A stretch of 64,000 nt of DNA from Sipunculus nudus. Its lineage: Eukaryota > Annelida > Sipuncula > Golfingiida > Sipunculidae. This document shows positions 5,350-64,000 of this stretch, piece by piece. The first letter of the stretch is position 1. Every line of letters begins with the position of its first letter. Location: NCBI GenBank assembly GCA_026874595.1, contig CM049313.1, positions 68,504,659 through 68,568,658 on the forward strand, written 5' to 3'. Under the pieces are notes generated by a model that worked only from the letters and a program-made list of their open reading frames with translations, was not told where the DNA came from and did no database searches. The position numbers and the translations under genes were made by a program.

Positions 5350-6960
5350 TGTTCTGTAAGTCATCTGAACTTTAGCAATCACTCTTGGTCCGTCGTCGGT
5401 CCGGTCGTCCGGTCGTCCTGGCGTCTGTCCGTTAACAGGGCACAAATCGTAACTGCTGGACCTAGAATCTTCTTACTTGACATCCAGAGAGGTCCATAAA
5501 AAATCTCCTAGAAAACCATGAAATTAGGTCACTGTTACCCATATTCTTCCAGGTATGGGGCTCCAAAGTACCCCCCTCCCCAGAATAATGGCAATTTCAT
5601 AGAAAAGCTCAAGTATCTTAACAAATTATGCATTGATCACCATGATTTTTTTTGCATGGATATTGATCATGGAGTGTTCCATCAGTTTCTGCAGACTGGT
5701 GGCGCCACCTGTATTTTTTATTTGTTATGATTTTTTTTCTCTATTTTTGAAACCTTTAAAGATGCAGTCATCTGTTAACAGGACATACATTGTAACCGCT
5801 GGACCTTCAATCTTTTTACTTTAAAATCCGGAGAGGTCAATTAAAAACCTCTTTCAAAACCTTAAATTAAGTCTCTGTTACTAATATTCTTCCCGCTATG
5901 GGGCTATGTAGTAGCCCCCAGATTAGTTGAAAATTTCATAGAAAAGCTCGAGTATCTGAACACTAATGCATTGATCACCATGATTTTTTGCATGGATAAT
6001 GATCATGGAGTGTTTCATCAGTTCCTGCAGACTTGAAGCGCCACCTGTATTGTTTATTTATTTTTACGATTTTTTCTCTATTTTATAGACCTTTAAAGAT
6101 GGTGTCATCTGTTAACAGGACACAAATCGTAACCCCTGGACCAAGAATCTTCTAACTTAAAATCCAGAGAGGTCCATAAAAAATATCCTTTGAAACCTGA
6201 AATTAGGTCTCTGTTTCCCATATTCTTCCAGCTATGGGGCCCCGAAATACCCCTAGAATAATGGCAAATTTCATATAAAAGCTCAGGTATCTGAACAACT
6301 TATGCATTGATCACCATGATTCTTTGCATGGATATTGATCATGGAGTGTTTCATCAGCTTCTGCAGACAGGTGGCGCCACCTGCATTTTTTTTTAATTTT
6401 TACTCTATTTTATTAGACCTTTAAAGATGCAGTCATTTGTTTACAGGGCACAAAATGTTACTGCTGAACCTAGAATCTTCTATCTTGACATGCAAGGAGG
6501 CCCATGAAAAGTCTCTTAGGAGACCTAAAATTAGGTCTCTATTACCCAAAACCTTTGAAATACCCCCAGAGTAATGGAAAAATGGAAACAAAACCTCAAG
6601 TATCTGAACAACTAATGTATTGATCACCATGATTCGTTGCATAGATATTGATCAAGGATATGAGGTCATCTGTTAACAGGGCACAAATCATATTGACTAG
6701 ACCTAGAATCTTTCAACTTGACATCCTTGAATGTCTATAAAAAAGTCTTCAAGGAAACCTGAATTAGGTCTTTCTTACCCATATCATTTGAGCTATGGCG
6801 CTCAAAAGTGCCCTCAAAACAATTTAAAGTTTTAAACAAAAGCAGTGCACAAATCATAACCATTGGAGCTAGAATCTTCTGATTTGACATCCAGGGAGGT
6901 CCATAATAAGTCTCCTTGCAAACTAGAAATTATAGGTGTCTATAATTCATATTTTTAAAT
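5350..6960 (+). repeat. Tandem array of ~340-bp dispersed-repeat units
   Basis: The head reads AAGTCATCTGAACTTTAGCAA followed by a run of GTCCGTCGTCGG-type motifs. Units then begin with GTTAACAGGGCACAAATCGTAAC at about 5431, 5774, 6111, 6439 and 6672, with a degraded one near 6840; spacing is 343, 337, 328, 233 and 168 bp. Within each unit the order is constant: CTAGAATCTTCT, GACATCCAGAGAGGTCCAT, CCATATTCTTCCAG.TATGGGGC, TGCATTGATCACCATGAT, GATCATGGAGTGTT, CTGCAGAC.GGTGGCGCCACCTG, then a T-rich spacer. The last units are shortened. A second copy starts at 63,370 and minus-strand copies lie at 18.5-20.8 kb. Short open frames inside it are not genes. Confidence 0.8.
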
Positions 6961-7292
6961 TTATGAAGCATGTTTGAAAACCCCAGAAATTGAAATGAAT
7001 GGATCGTCCTAAAAGGTGGTCTTTGTATGCGTCTTAATTAACTTAAGCTAACTTGCATGAATGATGGTGCCACGTACATTATCTTAATTAGTTCCCTATG
7101 CACAGACATATTGTCAACATGTCAGTCGGCTGAGCGTCATGACCCATGGATCACTTGTTCCTACTTATTATGCAATCATTTCATGCTTTACAATTTCCTT
7201 GAAAAAAAAACACTGTATCCCAAAAGCAAGTGACGTATCTTAAGCAAAGCACATATGCCAACATATCGTTATTTAACATAAATAACATTTAG

Positions 7293-18559: not shown

Positions 18560-19220
18560 GATTCATAGGTCTAACGGTTTCAGAACATGCCCTGTTAACG
18601 GACGCATGGACGTCGGGATGGACAACAGGCAAAGGTCCATGAATATTGCTCAGATGACTTATATTCAGGTGAGCTGAATATGCGTTAAATAAGAAAAAGT
18701 ATAGGTGGCATCACCTGTCTTCAGGAAATGATGAAACACTTAGATCAATATATATGGAAAGAATCATGGCAAACAATGCATTAATTATTCAGATGTAGCA
18801 GCTTTTGTATCAATTTTTTTATTATTCTAGGGGGTATTTTCGGGACCCATAGCTTGGAGTATATAGGTCAGAGTGATCTAATTTCAAGTTTCAAATGAGA
18901 TTTTGTATGGATTTCCATGCATGTAACATAAGAAGATTCTAGGCTTGGCAGATACAATTTGTGTCCCCTCTGGTCAAAATTAATGTTTTCAGCCTGTAGT
19001 TAACAAAATATAGTTTACCATGGCCTATTTTTTGGTTTCCAAGGACATTGGCCTAGGACAACCCTAGCTAAACAGTATGAAAGTTTTAAGTCTGACAGTT
19101 ATGATTTGCGCTCTGTTAAAGTAAGAACTGATTCATCTGAAAAAAAAATAGAAAATAGAAAAAATAGTAAAAATTAGAACAAATGACCCATGGGTCATGA
19201 CGCTCAGCTGACAAGCATGA
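18560..19220 (-). repeat. GTTAACAGGGCAC-family repeat, minus orientation
   Basis: On the minus strand this region carries the family's head (CATCTGAGCAATATTCATGG, then CCGTCGTCC-like motifs) near 18,620-18,660 and a unit at 18,700-18,985. The unit contains, in the order of the plus-strand array, CTAGAATCTTCTTATG, ATGCATGGAAATCCAT, AGCTATGGGTCCCGAAAATACCCCC, TGCATTG and a GGTG.TGCCACCT end. It ends with AGCTGAGCGTCATGACCCATGGGTC near 19,186-19,212, the same motif found just after the plus-strand array at 7,130-7,155. Confidence 0.65.
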
Positions 19221-20574: not shown

Positions 20575-20830
20575 TTCGGGGGGGGGGGGGGGTAGCAAAC
20601 ACGGCCCGTTTCTAGAGGAATATAGGTGGCAGTAACCTAATTTCAGGTTTCCAAGGAGATCTTTTCAGAACCTCTAAGGCTACAAAGGGTTCATGATCCT
20701 AGCCCTTGCGGCTACGATTTGTGCCCTGCTAACTGATGGCCGGACTGCTATACGGCACGACGGAAGACGACGGACAATGATTTATCACTATAGCACAGCA
20801 TGGCTGAAAGTCAGCTGTTAATAAGACATA
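20575..20830 (-). repeat. Partial GTTAACAGGGCAC-family unit, minus orientation
   Basis: After a run of G (20,579-20,592), the minus strand reads CAGCTGACTTTCAGCCATGCTGTGCTATAG, TCCGTCGTCTTCCGTC, GTTAGCAGGGCACAAATCGTAGCC and CTAGGATCATGAACC. This is the family head followed by the start of one unit, lying upstream (on the minus strand) of the other blocks at 18.5-20.5 kb. Confidence 0.6.
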
Positions 20831-44284: not shown

Positions 44285-45108
44285 GTTGGCTCATTTTTTA
44301 TTATAAAAGTTAAAAGAAAATATAGATTTTTAGTGGGATACTCTCGGAATACGATATGTACAAATAATTTTCTACTGTTATTTTGTGGCAAAAATCATAT
44401 CCCGGTATGTTTACCTTGAAGACCTGGTCAGTGATGGTTTACATTGCGAACCGGAATGAGACGCGGAGGTATACAGTGTTTCGTTGATATTTGACTGGTT
44501 CCTATCGTTGGACATATAAAGAATAGGTTGATGTGAGGAACACATGAAAGATTAATTAAATGTACGTTGCAAGGAAACTGTTCCTGAAGAAGGAGACAGA
44601 AGTATGCATACATCTTAAGTAGCAGAAGCGGACCCAGCGGGACTCCATGCAGTGGGTCCGGATCCCATTTTCAGCCACCGCAACCTTTTTTTCATCGTTG
44701 GCTCATTTTTTATTATAAAAGTTAAAAGAAAATATAGATTTTTAGTGGGATACTCTCGGAATACGATATGTACAAATAATTTTCTACTGTTATTTTGTGG
44801 CAAAAATCATATCCCGGTATGTTTACCTTGAAGACCTGGTCAGTGATGGTTTACATTGCGAACCGGAATGAGACGCGGAGGTATACAGTGTTTCGTTGAT
44901 ATTTGACTGGTTCCTATCGTTGGACATATAAAGAATAGGTTGATGTGAGGAACACATGAAAGATTAATTAAATGTACGTTGCAAGGAAACTGTTCCTGAA
45001 GAAGGAGACAGAAGTATGCATACATCTTAAGTAGCAGAAGCGGACCCAGCGGGACTCCATGCAGTGGGTCCGGATCCCATTTTCAGCCACCGCAACCTTT
45101 TTTTCATC
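44285..45108. repeat. 412-bp tandem duplication, apparently identical copies
   Basis: GTTGGCTCATTTTTTATTAT begins at 44,285 and again at 44,697. The two 412-bp copies (44,285-44,696 and 44,697-45,108) read the same base for base as far as I can follow by eye, including identical 61-codon minus-strand frames at 44,428-44,613 and 44,840-45,025. The duplication breakpoint falls inside a GCGGATCC-type MITE, whose left part is in both copies but whose right part follows only the second. Either a very recent event or an assembly artefact. Confidence 0.92.
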
Positions 45109-45212
45109 GTATTAGACAAATTTTGAGGCCTGAAACCGCCGACACCACCCCCGCCCTCTTCCTGAAATTGGGACTTGAATCAGGTTTTGTCATTAATCCT
45201 CCTTGGTTGAAC
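45037..45212. mobile_element. GCGGATCC-family MITE, interrupted by duplication
   Basis: AGAAGCGGACCCAGCGGGACTCC, then GGGTCCGGATCCCATTTTCAGCCACCGC, AGACAAATTTTGAGGCCTG, and GGTTTTGTCATTAATCCTCCTTGGTTGAACTC match the MITE at 11,904-12,122 in order. The left part is also present at about 44,625-44,696 because of the 412-bp duplication. Confidence 0.5.
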
Positions 45213-46625: not shown

Positions 46626-46709
46626 GATATCCTGTAATCTCAATAGCTATCAATTACTTCTTCGGGTCTTCGAGTGTCGCTTTAAAATCGTGGACATCCA
46701 TTGAAAAGT

Positions 46710-46825
46710 ATGGAGCCCCTTAAGTGACATACGTATTATTTTTTTCCCGGGGTAAATATCGCGTTTCCTCGCGATGTTTTCGCGTTCCCTTGCGATCTTA
46801 CAAGTGATCACTAGGCTGGTTCCCT
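46710..46825 (-). repeat. Repeat with CGCGAGGGAACGCGAAA minisatellite, short allele
   Basis: On the minus strand: CCAGCCTAGTGATC, then about two and a half units of ATCGCRAGGGAACGCGAAA, then a linker TTTACCCCGGGAAAAAAATAATACGTATGTCACTTAAGGGGCTCCATA. The copy at 51,471-51,775 has the same flanks but about eleven units. The 118-codon minus-strand frame at 46,650-47,006 crosses it and is not credible as a gene. Confidence 0.75.
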
Positions 46826-47134
46826 GCTCCCCTATATCTAGCATACAACATCTAGCATACAAAGAATTGGACGCGGGAACCAGTACAACAGTTATCTGTG
46901 TCTCGTTCTGTGTCTTTAACACCACCATGCTCCACCTCTTAGATATACACTCGATGTAGGTTAACAAAGCGATACTTGAATAAGAGAGATTAGACTTTTT
47001 TGCCATGTTTCTGATATATGTTATCTATTCCCCATTTATTCATTTTTAATTTTTTTTGCAGACCTCTTTTTATTTTTTTAGCAATTAGATTATCTAATTA
47101 CTCGTTTCTATCTCTTTGTTTATTTGCAGTCAGA

Positions 47135-47335
47135 CCCAACAACGGATCAACAATGTCAACCTGGAACAGGCTCATATCCCGATGTAATTTACTGAAATTG
47201 ATAATATTTTTCACGTCAATTATTGGTTCAGACCCACTTTAAGATGGGTCAGGCCAAATTACCAATCAACAATATCAACTGTGCACATGCCTATCTTCCT
47301 ATGTTCATTTACTGATATTGGTAATATTTTATACA
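47135..47335. repeat. ~118-bp tandem repeat, two diverged copies
   Basis: GGATCAACAATGTCAACCTGG.ACAGGCTCATATCCCGATGTAATTTACTGAAATTGATAATATTTTTCAC at about 47,143 is echoed at about 47,262 by AATCAACAATATCAACTG..CACATGCCTATCTTCCTATGTTCATTTACTGATATTGGTAATATTTTATAC. Confidence 0.65.
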
Positions 47336-47647
47336 CTTTTGTTATCTATAAAATAATACAAAAAAATAAAAAAAAATACACATATTAAAATTCATTTAAA
47401 TTTATTTAAAAAATAAAAATCATTGTACAGGGTATAGAACCTTTGCAGGTTTATACTTTTCCACCCATCAGCTACTTTCCACACATAATACCATAAAATA
47501 TACAAATTATAATACTCTTAGATGAGAAACTATTATTTATTCCATCTTTTTTTTTCTTTCTTTTAATTCAAAGCTGCAGGAATGCATCGGCAGATAATGA
47601 TCGGATATTGGGTCGGTCCTTCTTAAGATCGGAAGATGGCGCGCGAC

Positions 47648-47648
<1 letters not shown>
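47336..47648. other. A-rich sequence, no gene seen
   Basis: A-rich stretch (AAAAAATAAAAAAAAATA near 47,360) and otherwise featureless sequence. Confidence 0.4.
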
Positions 47649-47702
<54 letters not shown>

Positions 47703-47735
47703 TATACATATATATATAAACACACACACACAAAA
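47649..47735. repeat. (TA)n/(CA)n microsatellite
   Basis: About 45 bp of TA, interrupted TA to 47,718, then a short CACACA run. Confidence 0.95.
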
Positions 47736-47784
47736 ACTTAAATGCGCAATTTAAGAACTTTATTTTAATCATACCAAGTATTGC

Positions 47785-47830
47785 CCCCCCCCAAGCCTAA
47801 ATTCTGAAATTTCTGGATCCCCCACTGGTT
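47785..47830. repeat. Possible solo end of CAGTGGCGGATCC MITE
   Basis: A C run, then AAATTCTGAAATTTCTGGATCCCCCACTGG; its reverse complement (CCAGTGGGGGATCCAGAAATTTC) matches the left end of the MITE at 41,985. The rest of the element is not evident. Confidence 0.35.
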
Positions 47831-48800
47831 TGAATTTATCATTCTGACATGTTCTGAACGTTTGATGCCCTATGTTGTGCTATATTATCATATTACAAGA
47901 TATGGAAAGTGCGACGCGAAAGAGACCGATTTGTGCTCGGACGGACAAGGGGTGATCACTATTGCTCTGATGACCTATGGTCAACTGAGCTTAAAAAAAA
48001 TGCATGCATTGTCTGTCCAAGAAGCATGCGGAAGGTCCAATTTGGTTTGGTCAGATTCACTGAAATATTTTACTTTACCAATTAATTCTGTTTTACGTTA
48101 ACGGCTAGGGAAATCTGTTACATTATCGTTTGATTTCGCATTACATTATTGGTTAGTGATACGTTGTCGGTCATTTATTTATTACGTTATCAGTTGGTTT
48201 TAAATTATCAGCTGAACAGTCCCATAATTATTTTGGTAGTTCTACAGAAGGCCTTAGGCCACATCTTTTCTTCTTCTTCTGATACTAAACACTAGTATGC
48301 ACATATTCCAGTGTCCAGAGGGTTATTTTACCCTGGATCATTTTCATACCCACCTTGTCTCATTAATGTATTTTGGTAAATGTGGTTCTCCATTAAGAAA
48401 GAGAAATACGTGTATTTAACTTATTTGCCGACCCCACATCAGTGAATACAAAACCACAAGTGTGCCCTCGGAGGACCAACACATTCTTCAATTGCCAGTC
48501 GATAAACAAATGAAGCATAGAACCGACCTTTAGAGAATGAGAATAAAAACTGCTAATTTTATATCTAGGCCCTGTTTCTTGACTTTTAATTAGTACTAGC
48601 CAGGTGAACATTTTCCTGGATTGTTGTGCCTCCTTTCGAGTTTGACATTTGCAAAATTTAATTTTGGCATTTACAATTACTCTTTTATTAAAGATTTTTT
48701 TGGTGAAGGTAACCGCCACCATTTTCAATATTTTAATATTAACATCTGCAGAATTCCATTCCGCGTTCGGATTACGTGACACGGCATTATCGCACGCTTC
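47831..48800. other. No recognisable gene
   Basis: The 178-codon minus-strand frame 48,393-48,929 is the second longest in the window but its N-terminal third reads through a SINE and the rest shows no domain; I do not accept it as a gene. Confidence 0.4.
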
Positions 48801-48806
48801 CTCTGA

Positions 48807-48935
48807 TTTTTTTTTTTCCTGGCGGTAACCAAGCCCAGTGACCACTGCACCTGAAAACCCTGGGTGCGTAATCATTCCCATTCCTGGGTCGAACCCCCGA
48901 AGCAGGGCCGGCGAGCACGATCTCCCCATTAAGTC
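48807..48935 (-). repeat. SINE with tRNA-like B box and poly-A tail
   Basis: On the minus strand: GCTCGCCGGCCCTGCTTCGG, a B box GGGTTCGACCC (48,886-48,896), a body of about 65 bp (GGAATGGGAATGATTACGCACCC.., CAGTGGTCACTGGGCTTGG, TTACCGCCAGG), and a poly-A tail of 11 (48,807-48,817). The A box is unclear, so the 5' end is approximate. Tail and B box together support a retroposed SINE. No convincing flanking duplication was found. Confidence 0.6.
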
Positions 48936-49359
48936 TATTTTAGTCTCTTACACCATCTTCAGAGAGATATTACTCACAAACCATCAATTAATAATAATGG
49001 TTAACATTTTGTTTCATAGAATTATTTTACGGAGCCCGGGAGACGACATGGTGAAAAATATTTATTAATTCGTGCGCACGAATTACTAATCCGTGCGCAC
49101 GAATTACTAATTCGTGGCCACGAATTACTAATCCATGCGCACGAATTACTAATCCGTGCGCACGAATTACTAGGTGTGAAAAATATATTTGCAAGGTGGG
49201 AAAATATTTATTTCAATAGGATAACAAAGTAGCCGATAAGGCTAATGCAACTGCTCTCCTGCATCTAAATTAAAAGAAAGTGAAAAATTAACATGAATAT
49301 ATATATATGTATATATAAATGATCAAATTTGAAAAGTGCACATATATTCACACACGATT

Positions 49360-49361
<2 letters not shown>

Positions 49362-49437
<76 letters not shown>
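49362..49437. repeat. (TA)n(GATA)n microsatellite
   Basis: About 48 bp of TA followed by about six GATA units, inside the foldback element. Confidence 0.95.
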
Positions 49438-49438
<1 letters not shown>

Positions 49439-49615
49439 CATGATATACGTTAATACAGATTGATATTCCACATAAACTGATATTTATACATATATTATTA
49501 CTGGTAGGCGTAATACAATAAAAATAAACGTCTCAGTCCATATCGAGCATATAAATTAGATTATAACCATCAGTCTTTCCAATTGAAAATAGGTATTGAT
49601 TTAAGTAACTGGCAC

Positions 49616-50210
49616 CTAGTCGTAACCGAGTATGGATAATTTTTCACGTTGACGATGTTTGTCGCAATAATAACTGTATATTTCTGGAGAGGCAGGGTTT
49701 AAATTGTCACGAACATTTTCCTTAAAGGAATCGATTGAAGTAGACTGAATTATAGGAAACTGTTTAAAAGTTTGCAGGCTATTGAAAGGAAAGAAAAGAA
49801 AATTGGAAGGAAAGAAAAGCGACAGTCGTTCCGTGTGAACCTCGGTATCTTTAGCAATTGCGAGTTGCGCGGACTGTATAGGGCTGAGCATGAGACAGAG
49901 TTTGAGTTAATATATTAGCAGATAATCTGGAGCTAGTCCGTTAATCATTTCATAAAATATGGATTGTATAGCCAGCTCTCTTCTTATTTTTATACTTGAC
50001 CCTTGTAGCTCGTTTACCATAGCTCCAGTGCTGGAAGTCGAGAGTGCTCCAGTACATGTTAAACATGCTTTCCGTTGTATACTCTCCAGCTGGTATGACT
50101 GTCTGACAGAACAATTGTTAAATATTAAAGCACCACACTCCAGTACTAAACGTATTAATGATTTGTACATACGATCTAAAACTTTCATAGAGAAATGGAA
50201 TTTATAATTT
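49616..50210 (-). pseudogene. Non-LTR reverse transcriptase C-terminal fragment
   Basis: The minus-strand frame 49,907-50,188 reads FSMKVLDRMYKSLIRLVLEC, then GALIFNNC, LESIQRKACLTCTGA and INGLAPDYL. This is the conserved stretch that follows the palm in CR1/L2-type and related non-LTR reverse transcriptases ('L..iYKsfIrPvLEYg..iw.nc', 'le.iQr.aa...tGa', 'ngLaP.yL'). After a frame change the downstream frame (49,616-49,891) continues with QSTSIDSFKENV and a YYCDKHRQ..LSILGY end, also typical. The catalytic YxDD domain is absent and at least one frameshift is present, so it is a dead fragment. It lies wholly inside the foldback element. I could not classify 50,210-50,700 upstream. Confidence 0.8.
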
Positions 50211-50735
50211 TTTTCAAAATTTCCAAAAGCTTATTTGCTTTCAAACATATCATGTTTATGTGTTCCTGTCAGGAAAGCGAATTCCAAATATGACATGAGA
50301 AGTTCTGTGAAGTTCATTTCACCTAGTTTATGTGTTATTTGCAATTTAGCATCATCGTCAATGGCGGTTGAGAACTGTAACTGTAGTTACTTTGTGAAGC
50401 AAAATAAGTGTTAAAATTTTCAGCCTGATCGGCTTTGTCTATAATAATGTGCCCATTATGCCCCAACGATTATAAGGTTTGTTGTTGTTTTGTTTTACCA
50501 GAGAAAGCCTTACTTAGAAATTTTCCACCATGCACGGCAACTGGGTCTGTGAGTTTTATATTTATATTCTTTAAGAATCGCTTAAAGCCCTTTCTATTTT
50601 CAATATACAGAGTTCCAAATTTTCCAAGGTAGGAAGTCATGGAATTGTCGGAAGGCGCTGGGCTCCATTTTGACAACCGTGTGTGCCCGCTAATAATGCC
50701 GGCCTGTGCCTAGACAGAGTCGATGTGTGCTTGCT

Positions 50736-50950
50736 TCTCATTGGCTAGTAATTCGTGCGCACGAATTAATAACTCGTGCGCACGAATTAATAGCCAATGA
50801 GCATTGAGCCAGCAACATAAGAGAGCTGTTCTCATTGGTCACTAATTCGTGCGCACGGATTAGTAATTCGTGCGCACGGATTAGTAATTCGTGGCAACGA
50901 ATTAGTAATTCGTGCGCACGGATTAGTAATTCGTGCACACGAATTAATAA
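50736..50950. repeat. Inner palindromic arrays of the foldback element
   Basis: Two units of the 21-bp palindromic repeat at 50,745-50,797 are themselves bracketed by CTCATTGGCTA and TAGCCAATGAG. A five-unit array follows at 50,848-50,950, whose third unit carries a GTGGCAAC variant. The spacer holds CTCATTGGTCAC. Confidence 0.75.
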
Positions 50951-51222
50951 ATATTTTTTCCACCTTGGAAATATATTTTTCACACCTATTAATTCGTGCG
51001 CACGGATTAGTAATTCGTGGCCACGAATAAGTAATTCGTGCGCACGGATTAGTAATTCGTGCGCACGGATTAGTAATTCGTGCGCACGAATTAATAAATA
51101 TTTTTCACCATGTCGTCTCCCGGGCTCCGTATTATTTCATGCGAAATTATAATAGAGAATCATTTGTTAACTTTCCACAATTGACCGAGGACCCATAATA
51201 GTAGCAGATATGTTGGGCATGA

Positions 51223-51225
<3 letters not shown>

Positions 51226-51279
<54 letters not shown>
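51226..51279. repeat. (TA)n microsatellite
   Basis: About 52 bp of TA. Confidence 0.95.
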
Positions 51280-51281
<2 letters not shown>

Positions 51282-51373
51282 TTGACAGTGGAAGTATCAA
51301 TTATTTGATAGAATCTGGCCTAATATTGATTTCATGTCAGATAAAAGAAAAAGATATAAAATATTAATGAAAC

Positions 51374-51374
51374 C

Positions 51375-51411
<37 letters not shown>
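51374..51411. repeat. (TA)n(TG)n microsatellite
   Basis: Short TA run followed by about 23 bp of TG. Confidence 0.95.
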
Positions 51412-51470
51412 TATTAGACTATTTGAGATCATCAAGAATAATTGTAGCAAGGTACTTATAATTATCAACA

Positions 51471-51775
51471 ACCAGCCTAGCCAAACAGATCGCGAGGGAA
51501 CGCGAAAATGATCGCGAGGGAACGCGAAAAGATCGCGAGGGAACGCGATATTATCGCGAGGGAACGCGAAAGATCGCGAGGGAACGCGAAATGATCGCGA
51601 GGGAACGCGAAAAGATTGCGAGGGAACGCGAAAAGATCGTGAGGGAACGCGATATTATCGCCAGGGAACGCAAAAAGATTGCGAGGGAACGCGATATTAT
51701 CGCGAGGGAACGCGATAATTACCCAGAAAAAAAATATCACGTATGTCACTTTAGGGGCTCCATAGAGAAGGGCAG
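51471..51775 (+). repeat. Repeat with CGCGAGGGAACGCGAAA minisatellite, long allele
   Basis: Starts with CAACCAGCCTAG, holds about eleven units of GATCGCGAGGGAACGCGAAA (19-22 bp; 51,488-51,720) and ends with ACCCAGAAAAAAAATATCACGTATGTCACTTTAGGGGCTCCATA. Both flanks match the reverse complement of 46,710-46,825. Where units are 21 bp, an open frame repeats the heptad IAREREK and looks like coiled coil, but the flanking linker is in a different frame in the two copies, so conservation is at DNA level. Confidence 0.85.
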
Positions 51776-53179: not shown

Positions 53180-55630
53180 TAAGCATTTTTTAAAAGTGGC
53201 TAGGCTCTCATTTTTTCTTAGTTCTAAAGGAAATGAATTCAACTAAGTGGGACCTGCCACACAAAATGCTCTTAGAGCAACCATGGAAGACTTTGTATGT
53301 GGAACAAAAAGTAAGTCATGATCGGCAATCTGAGACATCTACCGTGTATGCACGAATGAATTATATCCAATAAGCAGACCGGGGCCATGCGATGTTTGGT
53401 CTTGAAAAGTAGTATGGCCACCTTAAATTTAATACGCTGACTCACAGGAAGCCAGTGCAGCTCCCGCAATACAGGTGTAAAATGATCATACTTGTCACAT
53501 CCACTTATTATACGGGCTGCGCTGTTCTGAACTCGCTGAAGCCTCTGAATTAATGAAGACGGATACCTAAGAAATAAAGCATTTCCATAATCTAACAAGG
53601 TAGTGACAAAAGCATGGATCAGGCGCTCAAGAGAGAGTTGATCCAAATACGCTTTTATTTTATAGATGTTTTGGAGATTCATGTAGGCCACACGGCATAT
53701 GTTCACATGCTGCTCCATGGTGGAATGGGAATCAAAATAAACACCAAGGCTTCGAATCCACTGAGATGTTGGAATTTTAAGTTCGCAAATTAGACGATTT
53801 GGACATTTAATCTTTGTCGCCAAGTGTTTCGGTGTAATCAGTATCACCTCTGTTTTATCATCGTTCATTTTCAAGCTGTTGTTTGCCATCCACTTACGTA
53901 CTAAACCAGCAGTAGTCTCCATATATGTGATGTTATTGCTGAGGTACTCAGGCCTGAAAGTCAAATACAAAGTAGAATCATCAGCATACATATTATAAAA
54001 ACCACGCTTATGCAGTAAAGTACCTAAGGGAGCAGTGTAAAGAGTAAAGAGGACAGGTCCTAAGGCAGAGCCCTGGGGCACACAGCAGTCCAATATTTGT
54101 AACTATGACTTAATCCCTTCAATCTGGACTGACTGGCTACGTTTACAAAGATATGATGCGAACCATTCTAGGGCAGTGCCAGTAACTCCCATTGACCGAA
54201 GTGTATCAAGCAAGATCTCATGACTGACCGTATCAAAGGCAGCTGACAAGTCAATCATGACTAAAAGTACACATTAGATGTCATTATGTACTCTCAATGT
54301 GGCAGTCTCTGTGGAGTGCCCGGCCCGATAAGCTGATTGATATGGCTCCTCTAAATTATTATCTACAAGATATTTGCGGAGTCGTGAACACACGACCTTC
54401 TCATCACAACAAACGCCAAATTAGAGAAAGGTCTAAAGTTTTTTAAAACTTCAGGATCCAGTGTAGACTTCTTAATAAGCGGGTCGACGAGAGCGCTTTT
54501 GTAGTTCTGTGGAAATACACCAGTTGAAAGTGACAGGTTAACTATGTGTGAAATGACAGTAGTTAATTCCTAGGAACATGCCTTCAGATGTCTGGTCGGA
54601 AGGGGATCAAGGTCGCATTGCTTGGCGGCAGATGCTGAGATACACGCCCAACTTCGTCCACGGTGGCAGGAGCCAAATTCGTCATGGAAGTAAGTACGCG
54701 AGTGCTCGAAAATGTAAGTCCAGAGTAAGAAATGTCTGCTCGAATGGACTCCCTGATATCCTGTATCTTGAAGACAAAGAAGGAACTGAAAACTTCAACA
54801 AGGTAAGTAACTGGCTTCCTTGGAGGAAGTACCGTCTTATCCTTACCAAGCAAGGTGTTTACCACTCTGAACAGCTCCTTCGAGTTGTCTTTACACTCTG
54901 CAATCTTGTTACTATAGTAACTAGTCTTTGACAGTTTAATTTGGCGATTGACCTTCGATCTGTATTAAATGAACATGTCATGATAGACTGTAAGTCCATT
55001 TTTCCTCCACAACCGTTCCAACTGTCTACGTAATTGCTTTGCAGCCCTGACCTCATCTGTGTACCATTCAGCATCTTTTCGTATGGTAATGACTCGCGTT
55101 TTCAAAGGGGCATGGGCATCAAGCAGGGTAGACAGTTCTGTGTTGTAGAGTGAGACAAGATCATTCAGAGAGTAGGCACTGAAATCAGTAGACAGCACAG
55201 ATCTCTGAATGTCACTGGCTAGATCTGTCACATTCAAAGCTTTTAGCTTAAACAGTCTCTGAAAGCACAAAGTAGAAAACACAGGATAATGGTCTGGAAA
55301 TTCATCGTCCTGAGACTCCTCATTGCTGACCAAGTTATCATTTGATCATGAGAGGACGAGATCAAGAGTGTGGCCACGACGAAGTGTGCTCTGACATACA
55401 TGCTGTACGAAACCGAAACGCTCAATCATGTACAGTATTCCCGTGCATTTCTGTCATCATTTTTGACATGGATGTTAAAATCACCGAGGATCGCAATTTG
55501 TTTAGAACATGAGGTGATATGCTGTTGATAGTGCAGTAGCTTATGGAAAAATGTTCAAATTGTGATAAAAGCAACAAATTTGGTACAATGCTATTATCAT
55601 ACACAAGCGTTCGTTTACGAAATAGTTCCA
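53180..55630 (-). mobile_element. Decayed CR1/L2-like non-LTR retrotransposon (LINE)
   Basis: Minus-strand copy about 2.45 kb long, 5'-truncated. Order: end of the AP-type endonuclease (ILGDFNIHV at 55,465-55,491; ERFGFVQHV; GHTLDLVLS), a linker (APLKTRVITIRKDAEWY, 55,060-55,120), then reverse transcriptase with YQSAYRAGHSTETA, motif [11 protein letters not shown] (near 54,231-54,260), motif B PQGSALGPV and the catalytic YADDS (near 53,974-53,988), then RVQNSAARI and LHWLPV. The longest intact piece is 53,272-54,093 (273 codons). Several frameshifts and stops (for instance a TAG before LDCCVPQGS, and a late shift before NSFPLELRKNESLATFKKCLKT near 53,190) show it is inactive. The clade assignment rests on motif style only. 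Confidence 0.92.
53272..54093 (-). pseudogene. LINE reverse transcriptase, longest intact piece
   Basis: 273 codons from the B motif region through the thumb and C-terminal segment. It starts mid-domain (DCCVPQGSALGPV), so the apparent start codon is not biological. Both active-site aspartates of YADD are present; the third catalytic aspartate (in DLSAAFD) is upstream, separated by an in-frame TAG. The natural C-terminus lies in another frame beyond 53,272. It would have copied LINE RNA at a nicked target site when intact. Plus-strand open frames over 54,578-54,931 are its antisense shadow. Confidence 0.9.
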
Positions 55631-57029: not shown

Positions 57030-57206
57030 CAGGAAAACTACCCCCCGGACAATTACCCCCCAACAATTACCTCCTGGACAATTACCCCCGGGACAATTAC
57101 CCCCCCAGGACAATTACCCCCTTGGACAACTACCCCCAGACAACTACCCCCGGACAATTATCCCCCGGTACAATTACCCCCGGACAACTACCCCCTGGAC
57201 AGTTAC
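57030..57206. repeat. GGACAATTACCCCC minisatellite
   Basis: About eleven degenerate units of 14-18 bp of the form GGACAATTACCCCC (with GGACAACTACCCCC variants). One plus-strand frame across it reads Gly-Gln-Leu-Pro and Asp-Asn-Tyr-Pro repeats by chance. Confidence 0.9.
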
Positions 57207-57209
57207 CCA

Positions 57210-63369: not shown

Positions 63370-64000
63370 TTAGCTCAGCTGACTGTAAGTCATCTGAGCT
63401 ATAGCAATCACCCTTTGTCCGTCGTCCGTCCAACCGTCTGGCCGTCCTGCCATCCGGCCGTCTGTCCGTTAACAGGCCACAAATCGTAACCGCTAGACCT
63501 GGAATCTTCGTACTTGATATCCAGGAAGGCCCATGAAAAGTCTCTGTGGAAACCTGGAATAAGATCTCTGTTACCCATATTCTTTGAGCTATGGGGCTCC
63601 AAAGTACCCCCAGAATAATGGAAAATTTAATATAAAAGCTCAAGTATGTGAGCAACTAATGCATTGATCACCATGATGCTTTCCATAGATATTGATCATG
63701 GAGTGTTTCAACAGTTTCTGCAGACTGGTGGCGGTACCTCTATTTTTTTTTTTTTTACGATTTTTTTTCTCTATTTTTAAGACCTTTAAAGATGCGGTTA
63801 TCCGTTAACAGGGCACAAAGCATAACAACTTGACCTAGAATCTTCTCTCTTAACATGCAGGGAGGCCCATGAAAAGTCTCCATGGAAACCAAATATTAGG
63901 TCTCTGTTACCCATATTCTTTAAGCTATGGGGCTCTGAAGTACCCCCCCCCCGCCCCAAGAATGATGGAAAATTTGATAAAAAAGCTCAAGTATCTGAAC
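63370..64000 (+). repeat. GTTAACAGGGCAC-family repeat, continues past window
   Basis: Head TTTAGCTCAGCTGACTGTAAGTCATCTGAGCTATAGCAATCACCC and GTCCGTCGTCCGTCC, then units at 63,468 (GTTAACAGGCCACAAATCG) and 63,804 (GTTAACAGGGCACAAAGC), spacing 336 bp, each with the same internal order as 5,431-6,840. Cut by the window end. The overlapping 124-codon minus frame is not a gene. Confidence 0.8.

Follow-up and report, generated by a model that had tools for sequence, protein, structure and literature searches.

A foldback transposon of Sipunculus nudus, probably of the IS3EU/GingerRoot type, with palindromic units at a 21-bp period in its ends and an insertion site within a related element

What kind of mobile DNA has ends that are built from arrays of a short palindrome, and do such arrays take any part in its movement? 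The question is raised by a locus in a 64-kb stretch of the Sipunculus nudus genome (the window), in which two arms of 177 nt, at 49028–49204 and 50955–51131, are 94% complementary without a gap, and thus form terminal inverted repeats (TIRs) of more than 30 bp; a chance inverted repeat was rejected as their source. A first-pass annotation had proposed a foldback transposon that extended from 49029 to 51130 and was flanked by an 8-bp duplication (seven of eight bases matching) of the kind left by a hAT-like transposase. The foldback transposon is borne out by 18 other paired copies, by target duplications and by empty sites; its true ends, however, lie one base further outward on each side, at 49028 and 51131. 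This inner element (no strand assigned) is 2104 bp long with termini TACGG..CCGTA, as defined by its inverted repeat, by a table of target site duplications (TSDs) and by the 18 other paired copies with identical ends. Its unique terminus, with the sequence TACGGAGCCCGGGAGACGACATGG, and leader together occupy 41 bp at 49028–49068 (plus strand) and again at 51091–51131 (minus strand), and the two arms agree at every one of the outer 40 nt, counting from 49029. The flanks match at seven of eight bases if the element is cut at 49029/51130, but the actual duplication is TTATTT, present 6/6 at 49022–49027 and at 51132–51137 (both plus strand), and relatives have just one TTATTT where the site is empty. 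The window copy by itself would be compatible with a 6-bp, an asymmetric 7-bp, an 8-bp (with one mismatch) or a TA duplication.

Other copies narrow this choice. A search of the host genome (1,426,538,692 bases in 153 contigs) with the segment 49029–49172 gave at least 180 matches, from the best 40 of 703 candidates scored. Twenty regions were fetched around the best matches, and both ends were found in 18 of them, L013 and L018 having one end only. The expectation that other copies would have common ends held, one base outside 49029/51130: the 18 paired copies end at TACGG/CCGTA. TACGG is present at 37 of 38 inner-family termini (at the right end of L015 the first base is different), and the 41-bp terminus has a mean of 1.1 mismatches over the 38 termini of 19 copies, a conservation that partly reflects selection by the search, since the copies were sampled by their similarity to one arm. 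At the TACGG…CCGTA boundary the 6-bp duplication is perfect in 14 of the 18 paired copies and in the window copy, that is in 15/19; it is imperfect in L026 (5/6) and in L010, L011 and L014 (2/6, 3/6 and 4/6, respectively). The asymmetric 7-bp duplication was dropped, the other genomic copies having given 6 bp.

These counts bear directly on the hAT assignment, which the window copy alone permits with its 7/8 match. Elsewhere the predicted 8-bp duplication did not hold up: at the 49029/51130-type boundary it is perfect in only three of 19 copies and 7/8 in another six, against the 15 of 19 that have 6/6 one base outward, and the outer element described below has 5/8. A hAT element with an 8-bp duplication is therefore rejected. 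The TACGG and TATGG ends are also unlike the usual ends of hAT elements, which we count against any hAT origin. That the element belongs to hAT in either form, with 8 bp or with the 6 bp of a hAT6-type element, is in our judgment very unlikely, even if hAT families with 6-bp TSDs do exist (PMC12730594).

Empty sites, which the annotation had suggested should be sought, were found. When the window flanks are joined, the product, which has a single TTATTT, aligns over the junction with five places in four loci (twice in L037, and in L038, L039 and L040); the alignments at the second L037 place, L038 and L039 have in common a 24-bp gap at some distance upstream of the junction. The sequence of the empty sites is GAATTATTTCATG or GAATTATTTCATA, and there is no TA between TTATTT and CAT. 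This matters for a further alternative, an element of a Tc1/mariner-like or PHIS lineage that would start with CGGAG and duplicate TA: as TA is self-complementary, its duplication would be indistinguishable from a TA inside the inverted repeat. Such an element would leave the flanking 6-bp repeats unexplained, although these are perfect in 15/19 inner copies and, in the outer family described below, in L037, L039 and L040, with a chance of about 0.0006 per site for a 6/6 duplication, and it would not account for empty sites without TA. Tc1/mariner, with TA as the only duplicated bases, was rejected on the extra 6-bp duplications and the empty sites, and we hold the whole TA-duplicating reading to be highly improbable. 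That the inner element is mobile is established by its many copies, together with the 6-bp target duplications and the empty sites.

The ends and duplications point instead to IS3EU/GingerRoot, a little-studied Repbase superfamily of DNA transposons. In complete IS3EU families the ends are TA..TA and the TSDs are usually of 6 bp (PMC10045372), and those of rust fungi have TAYGG..CCRTA ends, TIRs above 30 bp and a 6-bp TSD (PMC12730594); in the portions of these papers available to us the TAYGG form is documented for the rust-fungus families and TA..TA only for other IS3EU. The elements described here share this combination of ends, TIR length and 6-bp duplications (excerpts of PMC10045372 and PMC12730594; for Styx, PMC10853768), but differ in that no transposase was recognised in the fetched copies, among which the full-length transposase-coding copy that the annotation had proposed looking for was not found either. 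Since a transposase is lacking there, the superfamily is drawn from the ends and the TSD. We consider it probable that the inner element is a cut-and-paste DNA transposon of the IS3EU/GingerRoot type, non-autonomous and of foldback architecture, whose arrays would work by the phased mechanism outlined below; the four of 19 inner copies without a perfect TSD count against it. Foldback architecture, a structural class and not a clade, is present in the form of long inverted tandem-repeat ends that vary from copy to copy.

The inner element lies inside another of like plan, and this nesting is directly observed. The outer element, which belongs to a second, related family, occupies 46709–51764 (no strand assigned) with termini TATGGAGCCC..GGGCTCCATA, and was delimited by alignment, a signature scan, other genomic copies and empty sites. 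Its duplications, GAAAAG at 46703–46708 and GAGAAG at 51765–51770 (both plus strand), agree at 5/6. Its unit is TCGCG-AGGGAA-CGCGA with a period of about 21; the left array (46759–46795, minus strand) has two units of the form TCGCG-N6-CGCGA and the right one (51490–51715, plus strand) has 11, with spacings of 22, 21, 21, 20 and then 21 six times, and each arm has AACCAGCCTAG at its inner edge. The outer and inner termini have in common 9 of their first 10 bases and 15 of their first 24, and the two families share the 21-bp period but differ in the sequence of the unit. A genome search for the outer family gave at least 71 matches, from the best 40 of 235 candidates scored; TATGG is found at its paired ends, and its 6-bp duplications are 6/6 in L037, L039 and L040 and 5/6 in L038, L030 and the window. 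When the window was scanned for ends of this kind that match as inverted repeats and are flanked by a 6-bp duplication, only 46709–51764 (5/6) and 49028–51131 (6/6) were returned; the scan was designed after both elements had been noticed by eye, and among Markov controls 8 of 60 resampled windows gave one each. Since outer-family loci have the empty site, the inner element arrived second. In L037 (501–8021) two outer-family elements abut, with one 6-bp target sequence, AGAATC, common to both (6/6). The outer arrays also translate as RERE-type repeats, which are longer in other outer-family copies seen.

Between the inner element's arms lies an interior (49205–50736, minus strand) that is common to 17 of the 18 other paired copies, only partly in L011, L019 and L024, and is wholly absent in L026; identities of 90 to 99% were obtained among 15/19 copies in an alignment that omits these four. 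It consists of frame-shifted minus-strand pieces, which we take to resemble a non-LTR reverse transcriptase. A segment of 107 codons that is open in the window has one or more stops in every one of the 17 relatives, and in L012 and L028 a frame break divides it into two pieces; because it is interrupted in all 17, the interior is a broken passenger and not the engine of the element, and it may be a captured retrotransposon fragment that hitchhikes. In searches of Pfam and NCBIfam, interior pieces from the window copy and its relatives gave either no match or one below cut-off (Ephrin_rec_like, with E about 0.1); BLASTP of the interior ORF against the window's other reverse transcriptase gave no alignment, a related-locus search with a 93-aa interior ORF gave 17 pattern stretches and zero relatives, and there was no match in phage tblastn and PDB searches or in the literature for reverse-transcriptase peptide strings. 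Rfam had 0 matches in the window, and exact scans of viral and prokaryotic DNA contig collections also gave 0. Among ORFs of at least 100 aa in the 18 paired copies, in L013 and L018 and in five outer-family loci, none was recognised as a transposase; a Pfam search covered 10 of 24 non-repetitive ORFs among these and found no transposase, its sole match above cut-off being a reverse transcriptase in L013. The latter is a 485-aa minus-strand ORF (1322–2776; RVT_1, E 2.3e-24) that lies in an insert within an inner-element copy whose second end was not found. Outside the inner element, at 53272–55345 of the window, there are minus-strand ORFs that resemble the remains of a non-LTR retrotransposon, with a Pfam match to RVT_1 (E 3.4e-11) in 53272–54102 only.

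The arrays themselves are confined to the inner element: with a criterion of no more than three mismatches to TTCGTGCGCACGAA, there are 17 units within it and zero elsewhere in the window. Three of the 17 are perfect TTCGTGCGCACGAA and two a perfect GGCC variant, and in the other 12 the dyad symmetry is broken by one or two pairs. As the annotation had counted, there are five units in the left array (49069–49166, plus strand, period 21) and five in the right outer array (50993–51090, minus strand), and a comparison of the arms confirms that the variant, GTGGCCAC, is the third unit from the outside in the left array and the fourth in the right outer one; these two arrays differ at 9/105 positions. 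The right second array (50846–50943, minus strand) also has five units, with GTTGCCAC as its variant third from the outside; it is complementary at 97% over 116 nt to the left array region and has the same order of units as the left array. Further inward, at 50737–50801 (no strand assigned), is a hairpin module of CTCATTGGCTA, two units and TAGCCAATGAG, which belongs to the tandem repeat that makes up most of copy L026. The left arm continues, at 49173–49204 (plus strand), with the leader of a second module that matches the right-arm spacer. The annotation noted that the left arm lacks the second array; this is true of the window copy, but 14 of the 18 other copies carry one of one to four units there (one unit in L027), while it is absent in L016 and L017 and ambiguous in L026 and L028. 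Since the second left array is common among relatives, the window copy has most likely lost its own.

Turnover of the arrays, which had been surmised from the unequal position of the variant unit, is evident among the 18 paired copies, with arrays of one to eight units. The variant is third on the left in 15/18 relatives and fourth on the right in 7/18 (6/18 in fixed register), and the offset thus predates these insertions. Four copies (L009, L010, L012 and L022) have interiors that are 98.8–99.3% identical and right second arrays of 6, 3, 5 and 3 units, respectively, so that the arrays change faster than the rest of the element, and copies with interiors identical at about 99% make this turnover directly measurable. 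Units are probably gained and lost by unequal exchange or replication slippage. An extreme case is L026 (500–1775), which has proper ends and lacks the interior, its body being largely tandem repeats, of about 179 bp and longer, from the inner module; it is satellite-like, perhaps a satellite in the making.

What could the arrays be for? In the mechanism that we favor, a DDE transposase of the IS3EU type, produced from another locus of the genome, would bind the 41-bp terminus, and the dyad units, whose 21-bp spacing corresponds to two helical turns, would all lie on one face of the DNA and offer a dimeric DNA-binding domain additional sites in phase; they might thereby help a non-coding element to compete for transposase. 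The earlier suggestion that the arrays bind a transposase or host factor is thus plausible, and the phased reading draws on the precedent of Galileo, in which extra transposase sites inside the TIR repeats were demonstrated by gel shift (excerpt of PMC3688188). Neighboring units are spaced by 21 in 229 of 249 pairs in the 18 copies, and by 14 in 19 pairs, probably a false offset of the unit finder. When 114 units in 38 arms are taken by position, the linker is conserved at 84–97% and the half-sites at 87–95%, apart from position 2 (51%), with 75% at the two centre bases; a centre that varies to this degree is weakly consistent with a dimer that reads two half-sites around a free centre. An earlier contrast, in which half-sites appeared more conserved than the linker, was dropped, since it came in part from a finder that selects on half-sites and the recount by position disagrees; with the linker as conserved as the half-sites, the odds for a role of the arrays are lowered.

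The arrays might instead be passengers, cruciform-forming or satellite-like, propagated by recombination and by slippage during replication, without a role in mobility. The near-equal conservation of linker and half-sites would fit this, as would the range in unit number, the largely repetitive L026 and the folding of the single strands, which is far better than that of shuffles for the inner arrays (z -7 to -13) and better for the outer ones (z -5 to -6). Against it, 65 of the 114 units by position are imperfect as palindromes, 49 being perfect, and the 21-bp period is retained in two families whose unit sequences differ. We take the passenger reading seriously but rather doubt it. If the arrays are binding sites as we propose, these copies offer a natural test set for the tuning of transposition by subterminal repeats. 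A more speculative extension, which we think unlikely, is that there is in this genome a clade of IS3EU-type elements that keep the terminus TAYGGAGCCC and the 21-bp period and swap the palindromic unit between families, so that the array would serve as an address that is helically phased, can be exchanged and periodically breaks away as satellite DNA; were this true, the address would determine the transposase variant or host factor by which each family is mobilised.

Foldback elements of other animals provide partial parallels. The Drosophila FB and sea-urchin TU foldbacks have ends of short tandem repeats, as here, and differ in their repeat units and in the length of their duplications. 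The fly and sea-urchin foldbacks are named in a part of PMC4079207, which describes Tetris of Drosophila virilis; like the inner element, Tetris is non-autonomous and has long TIRs made of an outer flanking domain, tandem repeats and an inner domain, with a variable number of units and with repeats that seed satellite DNA (compare L026), whereas its units are of 220 bp, its duplications of 8–10 bp and its sequence different. Galileo, of the P superfamily, is alike in its long TIRs, which have internal repeats and additional transposase (THAP) sites, and unlike in its P-type transposase and its 1.2-kb TIRs with long repeats; 21-bp dyad units are not described in the available part of PMC3688188. 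Nor are 21-bp palindromic arrays in TIRs described for IS3EU in the portions of PMC10045372, PMC12730594 and PMC10853768 compared, and foldback IS3EU elements may have been published elsewhere; a literature search with the letters of the unit found two papers, of which neither concerns transposons to judge by its title. The oyster satellites CgiSat35 and CgiSat47 are classed as DNA/IS3EU, and the paper concerned mentions both IS3EU and foldback (PMC8268682, in part). Where a transposase group is named for a foldback in the papers compared, as far as their accessible parts go, it is another superfamily (P for Galileo, Mutator for Tm1, the latter by the title of its paper). Here, foldback architecture is paired with IS3EU-type ends in two nested, related families, the ends of both being fixed by empty sites and target duplications.

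The window has other repeats besides. A 412-bp unit is present twice, with 100% identity, at 44285–45110, which would be a very recent duplication or an assembly artefact. A tandem repeat of about 336 bp and its diverged copies elsewhere in the window occupy 5431–6965, 18686–18966, 20582–20810 and 63383–64000, and a short C-rich tandem array of TACCCCCCGGACAAT is found at 57032–57208.
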